A model generated the notes under the pieces. It made no database searches. It was not told the DNA's origin and saw nothing but the letters and a program-made list of their open reading frames with translations. Both the position numbers and the translations under genes were made by a program. A stretch of DNA of 40,031 bases from Candidatus Poribacteria bacterium. Its GTDB lineage: Bacteria; Poribacteria; WGA-4E; WGA-3G. This document shows, piece by piece, positions 10,254-39,902 of the stretch. Positions within the stretch are counted from its first letter, which is position 1, and each line of letters starts with the position of its first letter. The stretch is from positions 1-40,031 of the forward strand of contig VXMD01000019.1 of assembly GCA_009841255.1 (NCBI GenBank), in the 5' to 3' direction.

Positions 10254-11276
10254 TTAAAAATTCTTGCGCTTCAGGTTGCCCCAAGTCGTGACCAACTTCT
10301 CTTGTGGTTCGACTGGCAATATACTCCCATCACGCAACCAAGCAACAACAAAGACACTTCCATCGACCTCGACTATCACTTCAGTCTCACCGGTGGCGAA
10401 TTCATAAAGATAGATGGAACCCCAACGGGAATAGGCTATATAGTCCCCTTCAGGCGACCAGTCTGCCCAATAACCGGTGGCTTTGTCCACATCAAACAGT
10501 GTCTCAATTATTTTGGTGTCGACGTCGATTGTGCAGAACGTATCGAACTCTCTGTTCCATCTAAGGAAGAGGATGCGTTGCCCATCGGGTGCCCACACAG
10601 GATAAAAATCTTTATGGAGTTCGGTCAAGAGTTCTATCTCTTTGGTCTCAACGTCTAACATGTAGAGGTGTTCCAACCAACCGGGTCTGGAGAGCGAAAA
10701 GGCGATCCGTTTACTATTTGGCGACCAAGACATCCCCCAAAATGAATAGGGCCATCCCTGATGGGGGACTTGCGTCATGACTTCCATCTCACCGCTCTCA
10801 ATATCCAGCACCCAAATCTGGTTGTCTTGAGGCAGCTGGTTGATTGTCCACCCGTTGAAAGCAAGTTTTTTGCCATTCGGAGAAACGGAAAGAAACCGAT
10901 ACGTGCCAGCGGAGGGCGTAATGAGTTTCTTATTCTTCGGATTTTCGGGATTAATAGAATAAACATTAGAGTGCCCAGCATCCCGTTGGATGAAATAGAG
11001 GAGATCTCCGTTCGGACCCCACGAGGGATACATTCCTTTGAGGTTCAAAGGGACCGCTCTTAAATCCTTAGTGCCTTTGATTGTCGTTGTATAGAGATTC
11101 CAATCGAAACGCCCGAGGTTTTCATCGAATCCGTTGACTGCATACGCGAGATTTCCTGTCAGAGCAGCTTCACCTAACGATGCAAATGGGATAAGGGTTA
11201 AAAAAAACACCGCCCCGAGAGCGAATGCAACGATTTTGGAAGCGGAAAAAAGCGGACGATTATATTTATAAAGCAT
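10254..11276 (-). CDS. Secreted TolB-like beta-propeller protein with shared C-terminal tail
   Basis: 340 residues with a good AAGGAG ribosome binding site. An N-terminal membrane or signal segment (about 14-36) is followed by six PD40/WD40-like blades, recognisable by 'SPNGKKLAF', 'SPNSKRIAF', 'APDGQRILF' and 'SPEGDYIAY' repeats. Such propellers bind proteins or ligands in the periplasm or outside the cell; no enzymatic residues are visible. The last 20 residues contain EKLVTTWGNLKRK, a tail found again on three unrelated secreted proteins here. It follows the TPR gene by 59 bases and is probably in the same transcript, starting at the tRNA-Gly promoter. Confidence 0.8.
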   Translation of the reverse strand: MLYKYNRPLFSASKIVAFALGAVFFLTLIPFASLGEAALTGNLAYAVNGFDENLGRFDWNLYTTTIKGTKDLRAVPLNLKGMYPSWGPNGDLLYFIQRDAGHSNVYSINPENPKNKKLITPSAGTYRFLSVSPNGKKLAFNGWTINQLPQDNQIWVLDIESGEMEVMTQVPHQGWPYSFWGMSWSPNSKRIAFSLSRPGWLEHLYMLDVETKEIELLTELHKDFYPVWAPDGQRILFLRWNREFDTFCTIDVDTKIIETLFDVDKATGYWADWSPEGDYIAYSRWGSIYLYEFATGETEVIVEVDGSVFVVAWLRDGSILPVEPQEKLVTTWGNLKRKNF

Positions 11277-11335
11277 TATTGCCGCTCCTTAATATCTTAG
11301 ATATAAGGTAAAAGAATTATTGATAAAACCCAAAA

Positions 11336-12439
11336 TTACTGGACAGATCCAAGACGCTTGTAATGGAGCAGTGCATTCTCATAAAGGCGGCGGCTCAACC
11401 CGAGTTTTTCAAGATCAACAACCAGATCGTAACTGTAGAGTGCTGAGCTTTCTCTGCCTTCCTCGTCAGCGCGACGAGCACTTTGAACGTTATTGATGAT
11501 CGTCATCGCCTCTTTTTCAAAAGTTCCGATCTGCTTTCGGAGCTCCGTAGACAATCCGCCCTGAATGTCTTTGTTGACCTTATAGGTACGAATCGCGTCG
11601 GCATACGCGACATAAGCGTCATAGTAACGCTTTTCGTTTTCCAGTTTTTCCGCATTTGAGAGATCCAATATTTCACCGATGGCAGCAATAACTACTTTTG
11701 CGTCCTCAATGACCTCAACGCTTTTTTGGACAAGCCCTGCTTCAAGTGTCGTCCGGAACCCATCTACGATCTCTTTATATGCGGCACGCGCTGCCTCGGT
11801 ATCACCTGACTTTTCATAAACAATCGCCTGATTAAATTTGGCTTCGGTCAGTACGAACTTCCGAATCTCTGGCGAAAGTTCTGGTGTAGGCGGGAATGCT
11901 TTTGCTTGATAGGCATTAATGGCTTCCTGGTAATTGCCTTCCTGTTCGTAGGTATTGCCTATCGCCTTTTGTGCGTACAGGCTGTATATCTGATTTCTGG
12001 GTTGATGGCTTTCAATGACCTGTTGGAATTGTGAGCGTGCTTCGGCGTACGTGCCCTGATAATAGAGTGAACTCGCATATTGATACCGTGCCTTGTCAGC
12101 AAAAGCGGTATTCGGATAATTCTCAAAGACTTGTTGAAGTTGTGTCTGTGCGGTTGCGAGAGATTCTTCACTTTCTGCTAATTTATCTGCATCGAAAAGG
12201 CTCTGTTCCGCGGTTCGATAGGCTTCGGTGGCTTCACGCAGTGCGATCGTTGCCTCGGCACGGCGACTCTCTTGATTCTGATAATATGCCGCATAGCCGG
12301 CGACAGCAATAAGGACGATTCCTACGACAATGATAATGGTTCGCAAATTCTCTTTAAGGAACTGGTAGGTTTTCAGAAGTCCTTCAATAAATTTATCTTC
12401 TTGGATCTCTTCTTTCGTCAATCGTTGGTCTCGTGCCAT
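11336..12439 (-). CDS. Membrane-anchored TPR protein
   Basis: 367 residues from the ATG at 12439, chosen for the GAGGAAATT ribosome binding site; the in-frame upstream extension overlaps no good start signal. A charged cytoplasmic N-terminus (1-33) is followed by one membrane helix (about 34-52) and then a long soluble part with tetratricopeptide-like helical repeats ('AFADKARYQYASSLYYQGTYAEARSQFQQ' class, about 100-230). The topology resembles YfgM-like envelope chaperone partners, but identity is not established. It starts 41 bases after tRNA-Gly and probably shares its promoter. The second half (about 240-367) is helical without recognised repeats. Confidence 0.75.
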   Translation of the reverse strand: MARDQRLTKEEIQEDKFIEGLLKTYQFLKENLRTIIIVVGIVLIAVAGYAAYYQNQESRRAEATIALREATEAYRTAEQSLFDADKLAESEESLATAQTQLQQVFENYPNTAFADKARYQYASSLYYQGTYAEARSQFQQVIESHQPRNQIYSLYAQKAIGNTYEQEGNYQEAINAYQAKAFPPTPELSPEIRKFVLTEAKFNQAIVYEKSGDTEAARAAYKEIVDGFRTTLEAGLVQKSVEVIEDAKVVIAAIGEILDLSNAEKLENEKRYYDAYVAYADAIRTYKVNKDIQGGLSTELRKQIGTFEKEAMTIINNVQSARRADEEGRESSALYSYDLVVDLEKLGLSRRLYENALLHYKRLGSVQ

Positions 12440-12480
12440 GAATTTCCTCAATTTTAGGGGATTTTCAGTCAAAATATTCA

Positions 12481-12552
12481 AGCGGGTGACGGGAATTGAA
12501 CCCGCGACCCTCAGCTTGGGAAGCTGACGCTCTACCGCTGAGCTACACCCGC
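12481..12552 (-). tRNA. tRNA-Gly (CCC)
   Basis: 72-base cloverleaf. Acceptor GCGGGTG/CACCCGC with discriminator T, D-stem GCTC/GAGC, anticodon stem TCAGC/GCTGA with loop TTCCCAA (anticodon CCC), T-stem GCGGG/CCCGT. CCA is not encoded. It has its own consensus promoter. Confidence 0.95.
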
Positions 12553-12561
12553 ATTAATGGT

Positions 12562-12590
12562 ATTATACCATATCCGTTTGGCGTTGTCAA
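12562..12590 (-). promoter_or_regulatory. Full-consensus promoter of tRNA-Gly
   Basis: On the minus strand TTGACA (12590-12585), exactly 17 bases, TATAAT (12567-12562). Both hexamers match the sigma-70 consensus. The start point would be a few bases upstream of the tRNA. The downstream TPR and propeller genes have no other visible promoter. Confidence 0.9.
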
Positions 12591-12620
12591 TGTGATTAGT
12601 CTTCAGTTATCAGTTAAATG

Positions 12621-12677
12621 AAAAACGGGCGTTGGCAGGGTATACAATTACGGTTTGCAAGCTTCGCCAGATGCCCG
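12621..12677 (-). terminator. Possible intrinsic terminator of the peroxiredoxin gene
   Basis: Read on the minus strand, arms GCCCG/CGGGC reinforced by an inner TGGC/GCCA pair are followed immediately by five Ts. The loop of about 29 bases is long. It lies 60 bases past the peroxiredoxin stop. Confidence 0.4.
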
Positions 12678-12735
12678 CTTTTGCGTTTCGTCGATGTGCG
12701 CGGACTATGCGTAGGTCTCGGTTACTCTGGAGTCC

Positions 12736-13203
12736 CTATTGCAATTTGTCCAACTCGCCGAGGACTTGCTCAGCAGACAGTGTATTGTCGGGTGGCGCCG
12801 CTTCGACGTGTTTGAAGGCGATATTTCCCGACTTATCGATGATAATGACACCGCGTGTGGTAATACCGACCTCTTCGAGTGCCATACCGAACTGCTTAGA
12901 AACGGCAAGGTTCATATCGGCGAGGAGCGGGAAATCGACACCCCCGAGCACCTCACTCCATGCCTTATGGGCAAACGTTGAATCGCGATTGATTGCGATG
13001 ACTTCAGCACCTTTGGCTTGAATTGCTGACAAACTTTCGTTGAAATCTGGCACCTGTTCAGCACAGACCGGCGAAAAAGCGAGTGGATAGAAAAGGACTA
13101 CTAAATTTTTGTCTGCGTAGTCGCTTAATGAAACTTCAACATCTTCTTGGTTAACTGCACCTGTAAGTGTGAAATCCGGTGCAGCATTCCCTACATCTGC
13201 CAT
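12736..13203 (-). CDS. AhpE/BCP-like one-cysteine peroxiredoxin
   Basis: 155 residues. The peroxidatic site is P40-x3-S44-x2-C47 (PLAFSPVC), with the conserved arginine in ITTRGVIIID. C47 is the only cysteine in the protein, so it must be reduced by an outside thiol rather than by an internal resolving cysteine. The context resembles mycobacterial AhpE more than typical BCP. It reduces hydrogen peroxide or organic peroxides in the cytoplasm. Strong GGAGG ribosome binding site. A perfect 20-base palindrome 62 bases upstream is a candidate operator. Confidence 0.88.
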   Translation of the reverse strand: MADVGNAAPDFTLTGAVNQEDVEVSLSDYADKNLVVLFYPLAFSPVCAEQVPDFNESLSAIQAKGAEVIAINRDSTFAHKAWSEVLGGVDFPLLADMNLAVSKQFGMALEEVGITTRGVIIIDKSGNIAFKHVEAAPPDNTLSAEQVLGELDKLQ

Positions 13204-13264
13204 GAAAATTCCTCCTCTGTGCGTCTGAAAAACGCGTTTAGATAATGAGAGTTTTCTTTAAAAA

Positions 13265-13284
13265 ATGTTACACCAGTGTAACAT
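13265..13284. promoter_or_regulatory. Operator-like perfect palindrome upstream of the peroxiredoxin
   Basis: Arms ATGTTACAC and GTGTAACAT around a 2-base centre. A further half-site-like GTGTAAC occurs at about 13385-13391. The position between the peroxiredoxin start and the preceding gene fits a transcription-factor site. The regulator is unknown. Confidence 0.5.
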
Positions 13285-13461
13285 TTGGGTTGTATAGATT
13301 ATCGGCACAAAACCCAATAACTGTAAGGGTTTGTAGACATTTTCTATCTGGTCTTCCACGTTAAAAAAATAAAATAGTGAAAAGTGTAACGTTTTGTTAA
13401 GGGTTAAATTTTATGTTATATTCACGTTCGGGACGTTTATTTGGTTTCGGTAGGTGTAAGT

Positions 13462-14136
13462 TTATTTTCTTTTTAACGCTGCCCACGACACCGCGAGTTT
13501 CCCTCTGGGTTCAATTGCCGTCAATGAAGCAGTCGTGGAGCCGTTCACAGTGACATCATCGAAACTGGCTTGGGTATCCCACGTCCAGACGCCGACTTTC
13601 CCAACCGGATACGTATCATCAAAAAAGACGCCCTGTTCTATATCATTAATGGCGACTGCGATGCGACCGCCCTCAATCGTGACGCGGAGTGTGAACCATT
13701 CGTTGCGCGTAATCGTAAGCCCAATAGGTTCAATGTCGTGTTCGATTTCATCGCGTGCTTCGAACCCGTCCTTAAAGGCGGTGCTGCGCTTATGCCGCCA
13801 CAACTCAGACTTGTTCTCTTTCGGGCAGATGAGGTACACATAGTACTCAAATTCATTTTGAGCACGGAAGACGATACCGCCCCAGTGCCCATCATCCACA
13901 CGGACCTTTGCTTCCAGCGTGTGGTCGGTCCATTCTACCCCGTTAACCAACGCCTTTTGTGCTTCACCATAGCGCATCGTTTGTTTGTATACACCTTCTT
14001 CGACTTCCCAACTGCCATTCGCCGGGGTCCAATCGGAAGCATCGTTGTCAAAGGTCCAAACGTGTTCTTCAGCCGTCGCAAAAGGAACGATATAGAGACT
14101 GAGGCACATCAAAAAAAGTGCGAATCGGCTTTTCAT
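13462..14136 (-). CDS. Secreted concanavalin-A-like (DUF1080/LamG-type) protein with shared tail
   Basis: 224 residues from the ATG at 14136 (an ATG three codons earlier is possible). Signal peptide about 1-22 ending ATAEE, then a jelly-roll domain of the 3-keto-disaccharide hydrolase/LamG kind. Typical strands are 'GSWEVEEGVYKQ', 'GGIVFRAQNEFEYYVYL', 'WFTLRVTIEGGRIAVAIND' and 'GKVGVWTWDTQASFDDVTV'. Such domains usually bind or cut extracellular carbohydrate; no catalytic acid can be assigned. It ends with PRGKLAVSWAALKRK, the shared tail. It lies 83 bases downstream of another lectin-fold gene (14219) and is separated from it by a good terminator, so it is probably expressed separately. Confidence 0.78.
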   Translation of the reverse strand: MKSRFALFLMCLSLYIVPFATAEEHVWTFDNDASDWTPANGSWEVEEGVYKQTMRYGEAQKALVNGVEWTDHTLEAKVRVDDGHWGGIVFRAQNEFEYYVYLICPKENKSELWRHKRSTAFKDGFEARDEIEHDIEPIGLTITRNEWFTLRVTIEGGRIAVAINDIEQGVFFDDTYPVGKVGVWTWDTQASFDDVTVNGSTTASLTAIEPRGKLAVSWAALKRK

Positions 14137-14174
14137 AAGGTCCATCTCGGTCAGCAGCCTTCGTAAATCAACCT

Positions 14175-14207
14175 AAAATAGGGCGAATCCATTGAGGTTT
14201 CGCCCTA
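14175..14207 (-). terminator. Intrinsic terminator after the LamG gene
   Basis: On the minus strand a perfect 9-bp stem TAGGGCGAA/TTCGCCCTA with an 11-base loop is followed at once by TTTT. It starts 12 bases past the stop of the gene at 14219. Confidence 0.75.
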
Positions 14208-14218
14208 TAATCAAGAAC

Positions 14219-14989
14219 CTATTTCCTTTTAAGCTTTGCCCATTGCGTCGCGAGTTTCCCTTGCGGTACAACATCGAGACTCTCGGGTTCCATTCCGTTA
14301 ACTTCAGCTTCAGTCAACGCGACGGCGTAGATTCGGGATTCTTCAATGTGTGCGTTGAGATCTCCAGGACCCCCCAGTCCGTTTGTATGCCGTTTTCCCC
14401 AAATTATTTCAGCATCACCTGTGGGCCAGGTTTTGATCTCACCCTTTTCATAACTTCCAAGGCTCTTGCCGTTGCGGTATCCGGTAATCTTGTAAGTTCC
14501 ACCCTTATCTTCGTAAGTGAAGGCTAAGTAGACCATTTCGCCTTCTTTCTTTTCATTGTGCGCTTTTGGGAAGTCCTCCGTGCGATGGAACCAACTGCTT
14601 CCAGACATCCATTGATTCGGTTGACGCTCGGCATAGACGACGGCATTGAACTGGTCTTCTGTCGCTTTATCTAACGTGAGTGCTGAGCCTTTCGTTGCGG
14701 CGAGGCTGTCCAGAGCAACCCATGTCATCAAAGTCTTCTCTTCGATATCGGGTCCGCTGTATTCGAGTGCGTGTGCCCATTTCCCAGTCTCAACAATTAA
14801 CTGACCGCCTTTGAGTTCGGCACCGTGGAGATCCATATCGTCCCAGTTACCAATCTCGTCTTTTTCGCTCTCAAATAACCACCACCCAAGTAGCTCATCT
14901 GCTTGGGCACCTGGATCTGCGAAAACTGCGGGCGCTGAGAGGCTCAACATCAGCAGGACGGCACAGATGTAATAGACTTTTACTCTCAT
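14219..14989 (-). CDS. Secreted LamG-like lectin-fold protein with shared tail
   Basis: 256 residues from the ATG at 14989, fixed by the AAGGAGCG site and by the signal peptide (about 1-24, ending AVFADP). A LamG/concanavalin-like domain follows, opening with 'LLGWWLFESEKDEIGNWDD' and containing 'EKTLMTWVALDS' and 'HIEESRIYAVALTEAEV', the usual first and last strands of LamG_3 proteins. The function is probably extracellular binding or adhesion. The C-terminus is PQGKLATQWAKLKRK, the clearest copy of the shared tail. It has its own promoter (15098-15126) and terminator (14175-14207). Confidence 0.8.
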   Translation of the reverse strand: MRVKVYYICAVLLMLSLSAPAVFADPGAQADELLGWWLFESEKDEIGNWDDMDLHGAELKGGQLIVETGKWAHALEYSGPDIEEKTLMTWVALDSLAATKGSALTLDKATEDQFNAVVYAERQPNQWMSGSSWFHRTEDFPKAHNEKKEGEMVYLAFTYEDKGGTYKITGYRNGKSLGSYEKGEIKTWPTGDAEIIWGKRHTNGLGGPGDLNAHIEESRIYAVALTEAEVNGMEPESLDVVPQGKLATQWAKLKRK

Positions 14990-15097
14990 TGTCAATCGCT
15001 CCTTTTTCGGTTCAAATTGGAGTTCAACGCGGGTAGATTCTCTTGAGTACAGCACACGGGTCGTATTGCCACCCGCATAGGTGAATAAATCAAATAT

Positions 15098-15126
15098 ATT
15101 ATAACACATCATCGGCGCAAAAGCAA
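15098..15126 (-). promoter_or_regulatory. Promoter of the LamG gene at 14219
   Basis: On the minus strand TTGCTT (15126-15121), 17 bases, TATAAT (15103-15098). This gives a leader of about 100 bases before the ATG at 14989. Confidence 0.65.
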
Positions 15127-31451: not shown

Positions 31452-32264
31452 CTATTGGGAAGCCTGTTTAACCTTACCCCATGTGGTAGTGAGGTGCCCC
31501 AATGGAGAAACTGGGAGAAATTCCTCCATATTATTCATGACCGTCTCGATATCGTCTTTATCCAACTCGCCTTTGAAAAGGGCGACCTGATCAATGACGC
31601 CGTTGAAAAATGAACCGCCTCTGTGATCGCCCATGCTGACGCCGATTGCAAAGCCGTTCTCGTGATCAATGCTACCTTTGACCGAGCTATGGTCAATAGG
31701 ATTTCCCTGCTGTTCTCCATCGACGTAGACATATCGCTCACCCTTTGTTCTGCTAAAAACCACCGCAACATGATGCCATTTCCCGTCGTCAAGACCCGCG
31801 CCTCTGTTGTCACAAACTGTGACCGGTTCAGTCTGCAGTCAGGTCCTGATTTGTCCGCCGCCACTGAACTTGACTTCAAACCCAGTCCAGTCTCCAGCCA
31901 GCCTTGTTTTACTCATTATGAAACCCGTGCCCGCATCCGTTTTAAACCAAGCGGTAACAGTAAAGTCGGTCTTATCGCCGAGTTCAAACTCATTCAGTTT
32001 GTCAGCACTTTCCGTCTCGACCGAGGTCCCGCTGCCATCAAATTCCAGAGCACCGCCGAACTTACCTTCAACCCATTTGGGTCCGGCTATGAGTTCGCCG
32101 TCATTGCCATTCGGTGAGGAATCTTTAGCGACATTTCCTCTACCTTCGTCAAAGAGCCATATCCCGATTGCGTCATCTACGCTAACTTCAGCTGCGCTTA
32201 GTAAAGGGAACACAGAAGCTAGACAGGCGCAAGCTATGACCTTTATCAGCAATATCCGTATCAT
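31452..32264 (-). pseudogene. Secreted LamG protein interrupted by one in-frame TGA
   Basis: 270 codons with a single TGA at 31841-31839 (codon 142); both halves are in the same frame. The first 141 residues give a signal peptide (about 1-24, ending LLSAAEV) and a LamG start (AIGIWLFDEGRGNVAKDSSPNGNDG). After the TGA the frame continues LQTEPVTVCDNRGAG and KWHHVAVVFSRTKGERYVYVDG, exactly the expected next LamG strands. It ends PLGHLTTTWGKVKQ, a variant of the shared tail. The ribosome binding site (AAGGAG) is intact. A C-to-T change of CGA or a G-to-A change of TGG are simple origins. Sequencing error or read-through are alternatives. Confidence 0.8.
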
Positions 32265-38930: not shown

Positions 38931-39902
38931 CTAAAAATTGGCGACTAAGGAGACGCGGTGGGTTAATCCGAGAACGCCGAACGGGATGAGGGCATAGTCG
39001 ATTTGGAAGCGGAGGAACGTCAACCCAAAACCACCCGTGAGTCCTGAAATCGCGCCTAAATCGTTACCACCGATTTTGTATTTATAGCCGGTGCGAAGTT
39101 GTAAGATATTGCCAATCGTGTAGCCTGCCCCAATACCAATAGCGATATCGTTGTCGGAGGGACGAATGATGTCTGTCGTCAAGATGAGAGCGTCGTTCCA
39201 GAGTCTGTAAGCCGCACCGAGTCTAAGCGTAAAGGGTAACCCGAAAGCTTCCTCTATGAATTTCACCCGCGGACCGACGTGCTGTGCATTAAATCCCAAT
39301 GCGAGCGGTGTCTCAGGAAAGTTGTAAAGTCCACCGAGATCGAAAGCGACACCCGTCCCGCTTTCGTCAGCGATCTGCTCGCGCAGGAATTTTGCATTCG
39401 CGCCGAAAGCGAGCGAACTGCCGAAGCCGCGAGCATACGAGAGAATCAGTGCCAAATCGTAAGGACGGAAAATCGTCGTTTCATTCCCCTCCCGATCGCG
39501 TCCTTGCAATTCCCCGAAAGATAAGAAACTCGCGCTGACTCCGAGCGTGCCTGCACCTTTAAGTGGGAGCGCGAACCCAACGAATTCGTGATTGATTCCA
39601 GCGAACCATTCGTTATGCATGAGGGCAAGTTGCGGCTGTTGGAGTTTTGCGAGCCCGGCGGGATTCCAGTAGGATGCGTAAAGGTCATCGGTCGCCGCGA
39701 CTTGGGATTCCCCCATACTCATCGCCTCTGCACCGACACCGATTTTGAGAAAGGTCATGGCACGGGTGCCAGCGTTTTCGTGGATGTCTGTATTATCCGC
39801 GACTACTGGTAGGCACGCGAGGATGAAAACTATGATGATGGGATATATGAGAGTACGATAGTTCGCCATCCACAAACGGTTCTGGCTTTTAAACTGTTTC
39901 AT
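38931..39902 (-). CDS. PorV/PorQ-like outer-membrane beta-barrel protein
   Basis: 323 residues. Signal peptide about 17-35 (ending VVADN) after a longer-than-usual N-terminus. The family signature follows: AGTRAMTFLKIGVGAEAMSMG and ATDDLYASYWNPAGLA (about 45-83). Alternating beta strands continue to a C-terminal phenylalanine. PorV-like proteins relate to FadL-type barrels and in Bacteroidetes act with the type IX secretion system; no other secretion genes are in the window. AGGA precedes the ATG and a strong promoter lies at 39931-39959. Confidence 0.85.
   Translation of the reverse strand: MKQFKSQNRLWMANYRTLIYPIIIVFILACLPVVADNTDIHENAGTRAMTFLKIGVGAEAMSMGESQVAATDDLYASYWNPAGLAKLQQPQLALMHNEWFAGINHEFVGFALPLKGAGTLGVSASFLSFGELQGRDREGNETTIFRPYDLALILSYARGFGSSLAFGANAKFLREQIADESGTGVAFDLGGLYNFPETPLALGFNAQHVGPRVKFIEEAFGLPFTLRLGAAYRLWNDALILTTDIIRPSDNDIAIGIGAGYTIGNILQLRTGYKYKIGGNDLGAISGLTGGFGLTFLRFQIDYALIPFGVLGLTHRVSLVANF

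Follow-up and report, generated by a model that had tools for sequence, protein, structure and literature searches.

An undescribed C-terminal tag of exported proteins across Poribacteria

The tail that ends four genes of the window (the whole stretch of DNA analysed here, 40,031 nucleotides) is a real, phylum-wide and undescribed C-terminal tag of exported proteins in Poribacteria. It is about 17 residues long, with the consensus AVEPxGKLATTWGxLK. It stands at the end of the protein, is conserved, goes with N-terminal signal peptides, is independent of the body that precedes it and is restricted to the phylum. Judged from sequence, it probably serves genome-wide as a sorting or anchoring tag for exported proteins. 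The study of C-terminal sorting tags has more than once uncovered new secretion or anchoring machines (exosortase, rhombosortase, myxosortase). The present one marks more than 100 proteins in one genome of an uncultured, sponge-associated phylum, corresponds to no named model, has neither the membrane helix nor the folded domain seen in known tags, and offers a catalogue of proteins that probably make up the surface proteome of Poribacteria.

The window is contig 19 of the source genome, a Candidatus Poribacteria MAG (5.73 Mb, 87 contigs). A preliminary description had reported that four of its proteins end alike, and all four tails were recovered (Table 1); one correction concerns the propeller protein, whose true final residues are ...KRKNF. 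The Pro, Gly-Lys-Leu, Trp and basic end that had been noted are present, but conservation extends further than had been described. The claim that unlike folds precede the tail holds genome-wide, but only two fold classes are seen in the window, because the "jelly-roll" protein and the LamG protein both belong to the concanavalin-A/lectin-like class. Signal peptides had been attributed to all four proteins. The propeller protein groups among the signal-peptide-positive tailed proteins. For the LamG protein, translation probably starts at an internal Met (14989), the point from which the signal peptide runs; an alignment of six homologues of this protein includes the tail. In the interrupted LamG gene, the signal peptide sits on the upstream piece (31839-32264). 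The latter is one gene with a single in-frame TGA (31839-31841) and the same reading frame on either side; it may have become a pseudogene recently, or the TGA may be an error of assembly.

Table 1. Tailed genes of the window, type IX-like components and body families found with either C-terminal ending
Feature	Location	Strand	Tail	Evidence
PD40/TolB-like beta-propeller protein, exported, tailed	10254..11276	-	EKLVTTWGNLKRKNF	Pfam PD40 E 3.7e-15; tail block 10266-10319, profile E 1.6e-8
CBM66-like / 3-keto-disaccharide-hydrolase-like jelly-roll protein, exported, tailed	13462..14145	-	PRGKLAVSWAALKRK	Pfam PF06439 E 3.7e-9; tail block 13468-13518, profile E 6.5e-6
LamG_3 protein, exported, tailed	14219..15112	-	PQGKLATQWAKLKRK	Pfam Laminin_G_3 E 7.2e-9; tail block 14225-14275, profile E 7.3e-6
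Interrupted LamG gene, tailed	31452..32264	-	PLGHLTTTWGKVKQASQ	Laminin_G_3 on both pieces; tail 31464-31517, profile E 7.1e-5
PorV-family outer-membrane barrel	38931..39902	-		NCBIfam NF033709 E 4.3e-60; PDB PorV 6h3i_F E 6e-9
SprA/Sov-like translocon gene, divergent	G021:C109 (L243:11254-17718); G013:C27 (L244:10536-17090)
Giant gingipain/PorU-family proteases	G000:C13:116480, C32:95930, C82:192841
"ITGPWLW" domain family, either ending	L052/L091 vs L040, L305, L306			46-50% identity
Propeller-like family, either ending	L041 vs L303, L297
Family including LTD proteins, either ending	L266 vs L292

The information profile of the tail from position -8 to +8 reads hydrophobic, A/P, V, E/D, P, x, G, K, L, A/T, T, T, W, G/A, x, L/I, K. 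Valine occupies position -6 in 103 of 121 tails, with P at -4 and K at -1, followed by L, T, T, W, G/A, x, L/I and K; the element V-x-P-x-G-K-L-A/T-T-T-W-G/A-x-L/I-K usually has 1-4 residues after it. Variants such as GKATTTWGDLK and DKFTTTWAAIK indicate that the Trp and the Lys are the firm points. Searches of the genome and its relatives, a check proposed in the preliminary description, established that the tail is real and far more abundant than first reported. A strict degenerate DNA pattern encoding K-L-x-x-x-W-[GA]-x-[LIVMF]-K has 101 matches in the source genome and, when reversed, 0; the protein profile gave at least 150 matches (150 of 290 candidates scored). Counts at the ORF level come from about 1.55 Mb of the source genome, taken mostly around matches to the strict pattern. 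In this sample the motif closes 121 ORFs, and the regular expression that defines it has just one other match. Likewise, 141 of the 146 occurrences of W[GA]x[LIVM]K in the sampled ORFs fall within the last 22 residues, compared to 10 expected under a uniform distribution. Away from protein ends W[GA]x[LIVM]K seemed depleted (4 observed, 11.6 expected), but this was discounted, since W[GA]x[LIVM]E is equally depleted. No NCBIfam model describes the tail, and a literature search for its commonest strings returned no match.

The bodies of the tailed proteins are diverse. They form 22 BLAST sequence clusters in the source genome and 34 over all loci, the largest homology cluster of the source genome gathering 73 of its 123 tailed proteins. 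The tail is thus not confined to close paralogues sharing the preceding domain, an outcome that the preliminary description had considered. Pfam domains on 121 tailed proteins are LamG_3 (58 proteins), 3-keto-disaccharide hydrolase (3keto-disac_hyd, 14) and PD40 propellers (13), with Kelch, LTD and F5/8 C domains in addition; ten representatives of the smaller clusters had no Pfam match. The best Foldseek match of the jelly-roll protein of the window is CBM66 (E 1.6e-12), which makes sugar binding the commonest theme of the bodies. Mean pairwise identity is 54% between tails and 26% between bodies. Identity between tails at codon positions 1, 2 and 3 is 0.60, 0.71 and 0.36 respectively, and 64% of the residues shared between tails are encoded by different codons. 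The tail is under selection at the protein level, and is neither a DNA repeat nor an artefact of paralogy.

The association with export was analysed with a crude home-made rule for calling signal peptides. That the motif might belong mostly to cytoplasmic proteins, another outcome previously considered, is not what we found: by this rule signal peptides were called in 130 of 140 tailed ORFs of the source genome and in 289 of 1035 untailed ones (Fisher p 4e-52). The same rule called them in 164 of 172 tailed ORFs of relatives. Tailed ORFs lacking a call are mostly fragments, ORFs with long alternative starts and near misses of the rule. A lipoprotein reading was rejected; a lipobox regular expression matches 3 of 121 proteins, each time within the hydrophobic core of an ordinary signal peptide.

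The shape of the tail was considered next to that of known tags. For the jelly-roll protein with 12 homologues, AlphaFold gives a body with pLDDT of about 90; the tail is detached from it, has pLDDT below 50 and is drawn as a helix with low confidence. No Ig domain is present at the tail. The model of the LamG protein is of low confidence (pLDDT 38). A weak PDB profile match to the adhesin 8dj2 (i-E 0.03) was attributed to chance. Neither a hydrophobic membrane helix nor a conserved Cys was found in the last 35 residues of tailed proteins, in agreement with the initial statement that the tail has no membrane helix. For this reason it is not a PEP-CTERM, LPXTG or MYXO-CTERM signal. PEP-CTERM/exosortase (PMC1569441) and GlyGly-CTERM/rhombosortase (PMC3237569) resemble the tail in being many-to-one systems on proteins with signal peptides, but both are processed in the membrane. 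The tails, read directly, do not qualify as PEP-CTERM, and exosortase (PF09721) was found in 0 of 13 genomes, the control in M. jannaschii being positive. MYXO-CTERM/myxosortase is also a phylum-wide C-terminal tag for cell-surface sorting on dozens of proteins per genome, but its invariant Cys, membrane helix and Arg-rich end are all absent from the tail (PMC11980579). A sortase substrate was dismissed on the tails themselves, which contain neither LPXTG nor helix.

The closest comparison concerns the type A C-terminal domain (CTD; TIGR04183 / PF18962) of type IX secretion. Like the tail it is C-terminal and many-to-one, is borne by Sec-exported proteins with repeat and sugar-binding folds, occurs in the same genomes and has basic last residues. 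It folds, however, into an Ig-like domain that has motifs A-E and is at least about 70 residues long, whereas the tail is a detached stretch of about 17 residues with an invariant Trp, and no motif or fold is common to both. TIGR04183, a CTD model of about 72 residues, matches 1 of 121 tailed members (E 1.3e-4), and a local CTD profile has no match at the tail. Type IX signals can be shortened, as shown by the short CTDs of Prevotella intermedia, but these keep 40-51 residues and motifs B, D and E, and have no Trp-Gly-x-Leu-Lys (PMC11969387).

Type IX sorting domains have been described in Poribacteria by Kamke et al. (2014) while Por structural genes were reported missing (PMC3909097), and TXSScan (2016) found type IX systems solely in Bacteroidetes (PMC4793230). 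The homologues of SprA, PorU and PorV identified here bear on the puzzle stated in the former work, that of type IX domains without secretion genes. A divergent gene for a SprA-like protein of 2,150-2,310 residues is present in 21 of 21 Poribacteria genomes searched. In nearly all of these genomes its product matches TIGR04189 as several collinear pieces, below the curated cut-off, while Pfam SprA_N is above cut-off in both proteins tested; no PDB match was obtained by sequence. The gene of the source genome is split between the end of contig C82 and the end of C30. PorU-family C25 proteins (1,720-2,190 residues, 2-3 per genome in 13 of 13 genomes) match PorU (PDB 6za2, E 2.8e-21) and gingipains in PDB, and one His and one Cys, in a context like that of gingipains, are invariant across 13 sequences. 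The copy on C32 carries its own type A-like CTD at its end.

The source genome and its relatives contain 15-21 PorV-family barrels each (17 matches in the source genome). Bacteroidota have one or two PorV, which is far fewer. The barrel of the window is a candidate shuttle of a type IX-like system on the basis of its matches in Table 1. Several PorV-family genes have a PorU-family gene nearby, at a distance of up to about 5 kb. Inspection by eye of PorV genes beside tailed genes gave two close cases among 17, and no clear enrichment. Type A CTDs number 38-82 per Poribacteria genome. A search for GldM gave no match, yet its control was equally silent. The PorU (C25) proteases and PorV-family barrels, which are candidate readers of the tail, are present in every genome searched; since every genome of the phylum has the tail, and all those searched have type IX parts as well, co-occurrence is uninformative, also as regards a single processing enzyme.

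Other observations argue for, but do not prove, a link between the tail and type IX secretion. Three body families are found with either the tail or a CTD (Table 1). Large LTD proteins have an FN3-like "LPVELSHF..." segment followed by the tail; in Bacteroidota, this segment commonly stands before a type A CTD. Among 71 proteins with a CTD and 332 with the tail, 0 have both, a result which is partly trivial because each must be C-terminal. A short signal is not implausible, given that the final 22 residues of the HBP35 CTD are enough for secretion of GFP in P. gingivalis (review PMC10202324). Different CTD classes use different shuttle barrels in F. johnsoniae (PMC12618676), which would give the expansion of PorV a role.

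The following mechanism would account for these features; the reading of the tag, its cleavage, its partner and the surface location of the proteins are what we infer. Tailed proteins would be exported by Sec via their N-terminal signal peptide and would fold in the periplasm, leaving a flexible peptide of about 17 residues exposed. A common receptor would read this peptide, and the protein would be directed to, or held on, the outer surface. The likeliest machinery would be a type IX-like system made of the SprA-like translocon, PorU-family proteases and the PorV-family barrels in their expanded number; the tail would then replace the folded type A domain in a more compact form. As a whole, we find this explanation somewhat probable from the sequence comparisons. 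The type IX route taken separately, with the tail as a compact alternative signal, is plausible but falls short of probable. More tentatively, the tail may be a new class of type IX signal outside Bacteroidota, short, unfolded and read by dedicated PorV-like shuttles, so that two parallel signals would serve one translocon, the type A domain for large proteins and the tail for small ones; we regard this as rather doubtful.

The main rival explanation, which we judge unlikely, is that the tail is an uncleaved docking peptide, which would bind a pocket on a scaffold common to these proteins, at the surface or in the periplasm, and display many lectin-like proteins with no role for type IX secretion; dockerins bind cohesins in a comparable way. 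A short, unstructured, many-to-one tail with invariant Trp and Lys is what such docking would use, and many of the tailed bodies are lectin or propeller modules. Encapsulin cargo-loading peptides offer a parallel, being short C-terminal docking peptides with Leu and Lys positions, but their cargo is cytoplasmic whereas the tailed proteins carry signal peptides. No scaffold was identified, and the body families that occur with either the tail or a type IX CTD point instead to secretion or sorting. The tail could also be cleaved by a transpeptidase or protease outside type IX secretion, as its strictly C-terminal position, usually 1-4 residues from the end, would allow; lack of a membrane helix to hold the substrate and absence of exosortase from the 13 genomes searched make this improbable.

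Sticking of the protein to the outer membrane by the tail alone, as an amphipathic helix, agrees with the low-confidence helix drawn over one tail. It is nevertheless very improbable: the helical moment of the tail (0.307) is not higher than that of shuffled tails (0.263, sd 0.133), and the invariant Trp and Lys suggest specific recognition. The least probable reading, to which we give almost no weight, is a functionless relic: a single LamG family would have been duplicated, and recombination would have spread its 3' end. The size of the largest homology cluster is in its favour, but it is contradicted by the codon pattern, third positions varying freely while residues hold, as well as by a tail more conserved than the body, by the 22 body clusters and by the presence of the tail in every Poribacteria genome examined.

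This presence extends to 85 of 85 genomes, with 11-127 strict matches each. In a scan of about 85,000 species, 114 of the 119 loci listed are labelled Poribacteria. Among the five others, an Elusimicrobia locus (an internal site in a transporter-like ORF) and an Archangium locus (a site in a GC-rich, spurious-looking frame) were attributed to chance. Three further loci, L140, L164 and L197, have genuine-looking tails on contigs binned as Pseudomonadota, Planctomycetota and Deltaproteobacteria, respectively. They are probably mis-binned Poribacterial contigs, which is the simplest reading since their MAGs hold just 1-3 strict matches each. Horizontal spread beyond the phylum was rejected, the five loci being chance sites or likely mis-binned contigs. 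The tail could be used as a contamination marker for such mis-binned Poribacterial contigs.
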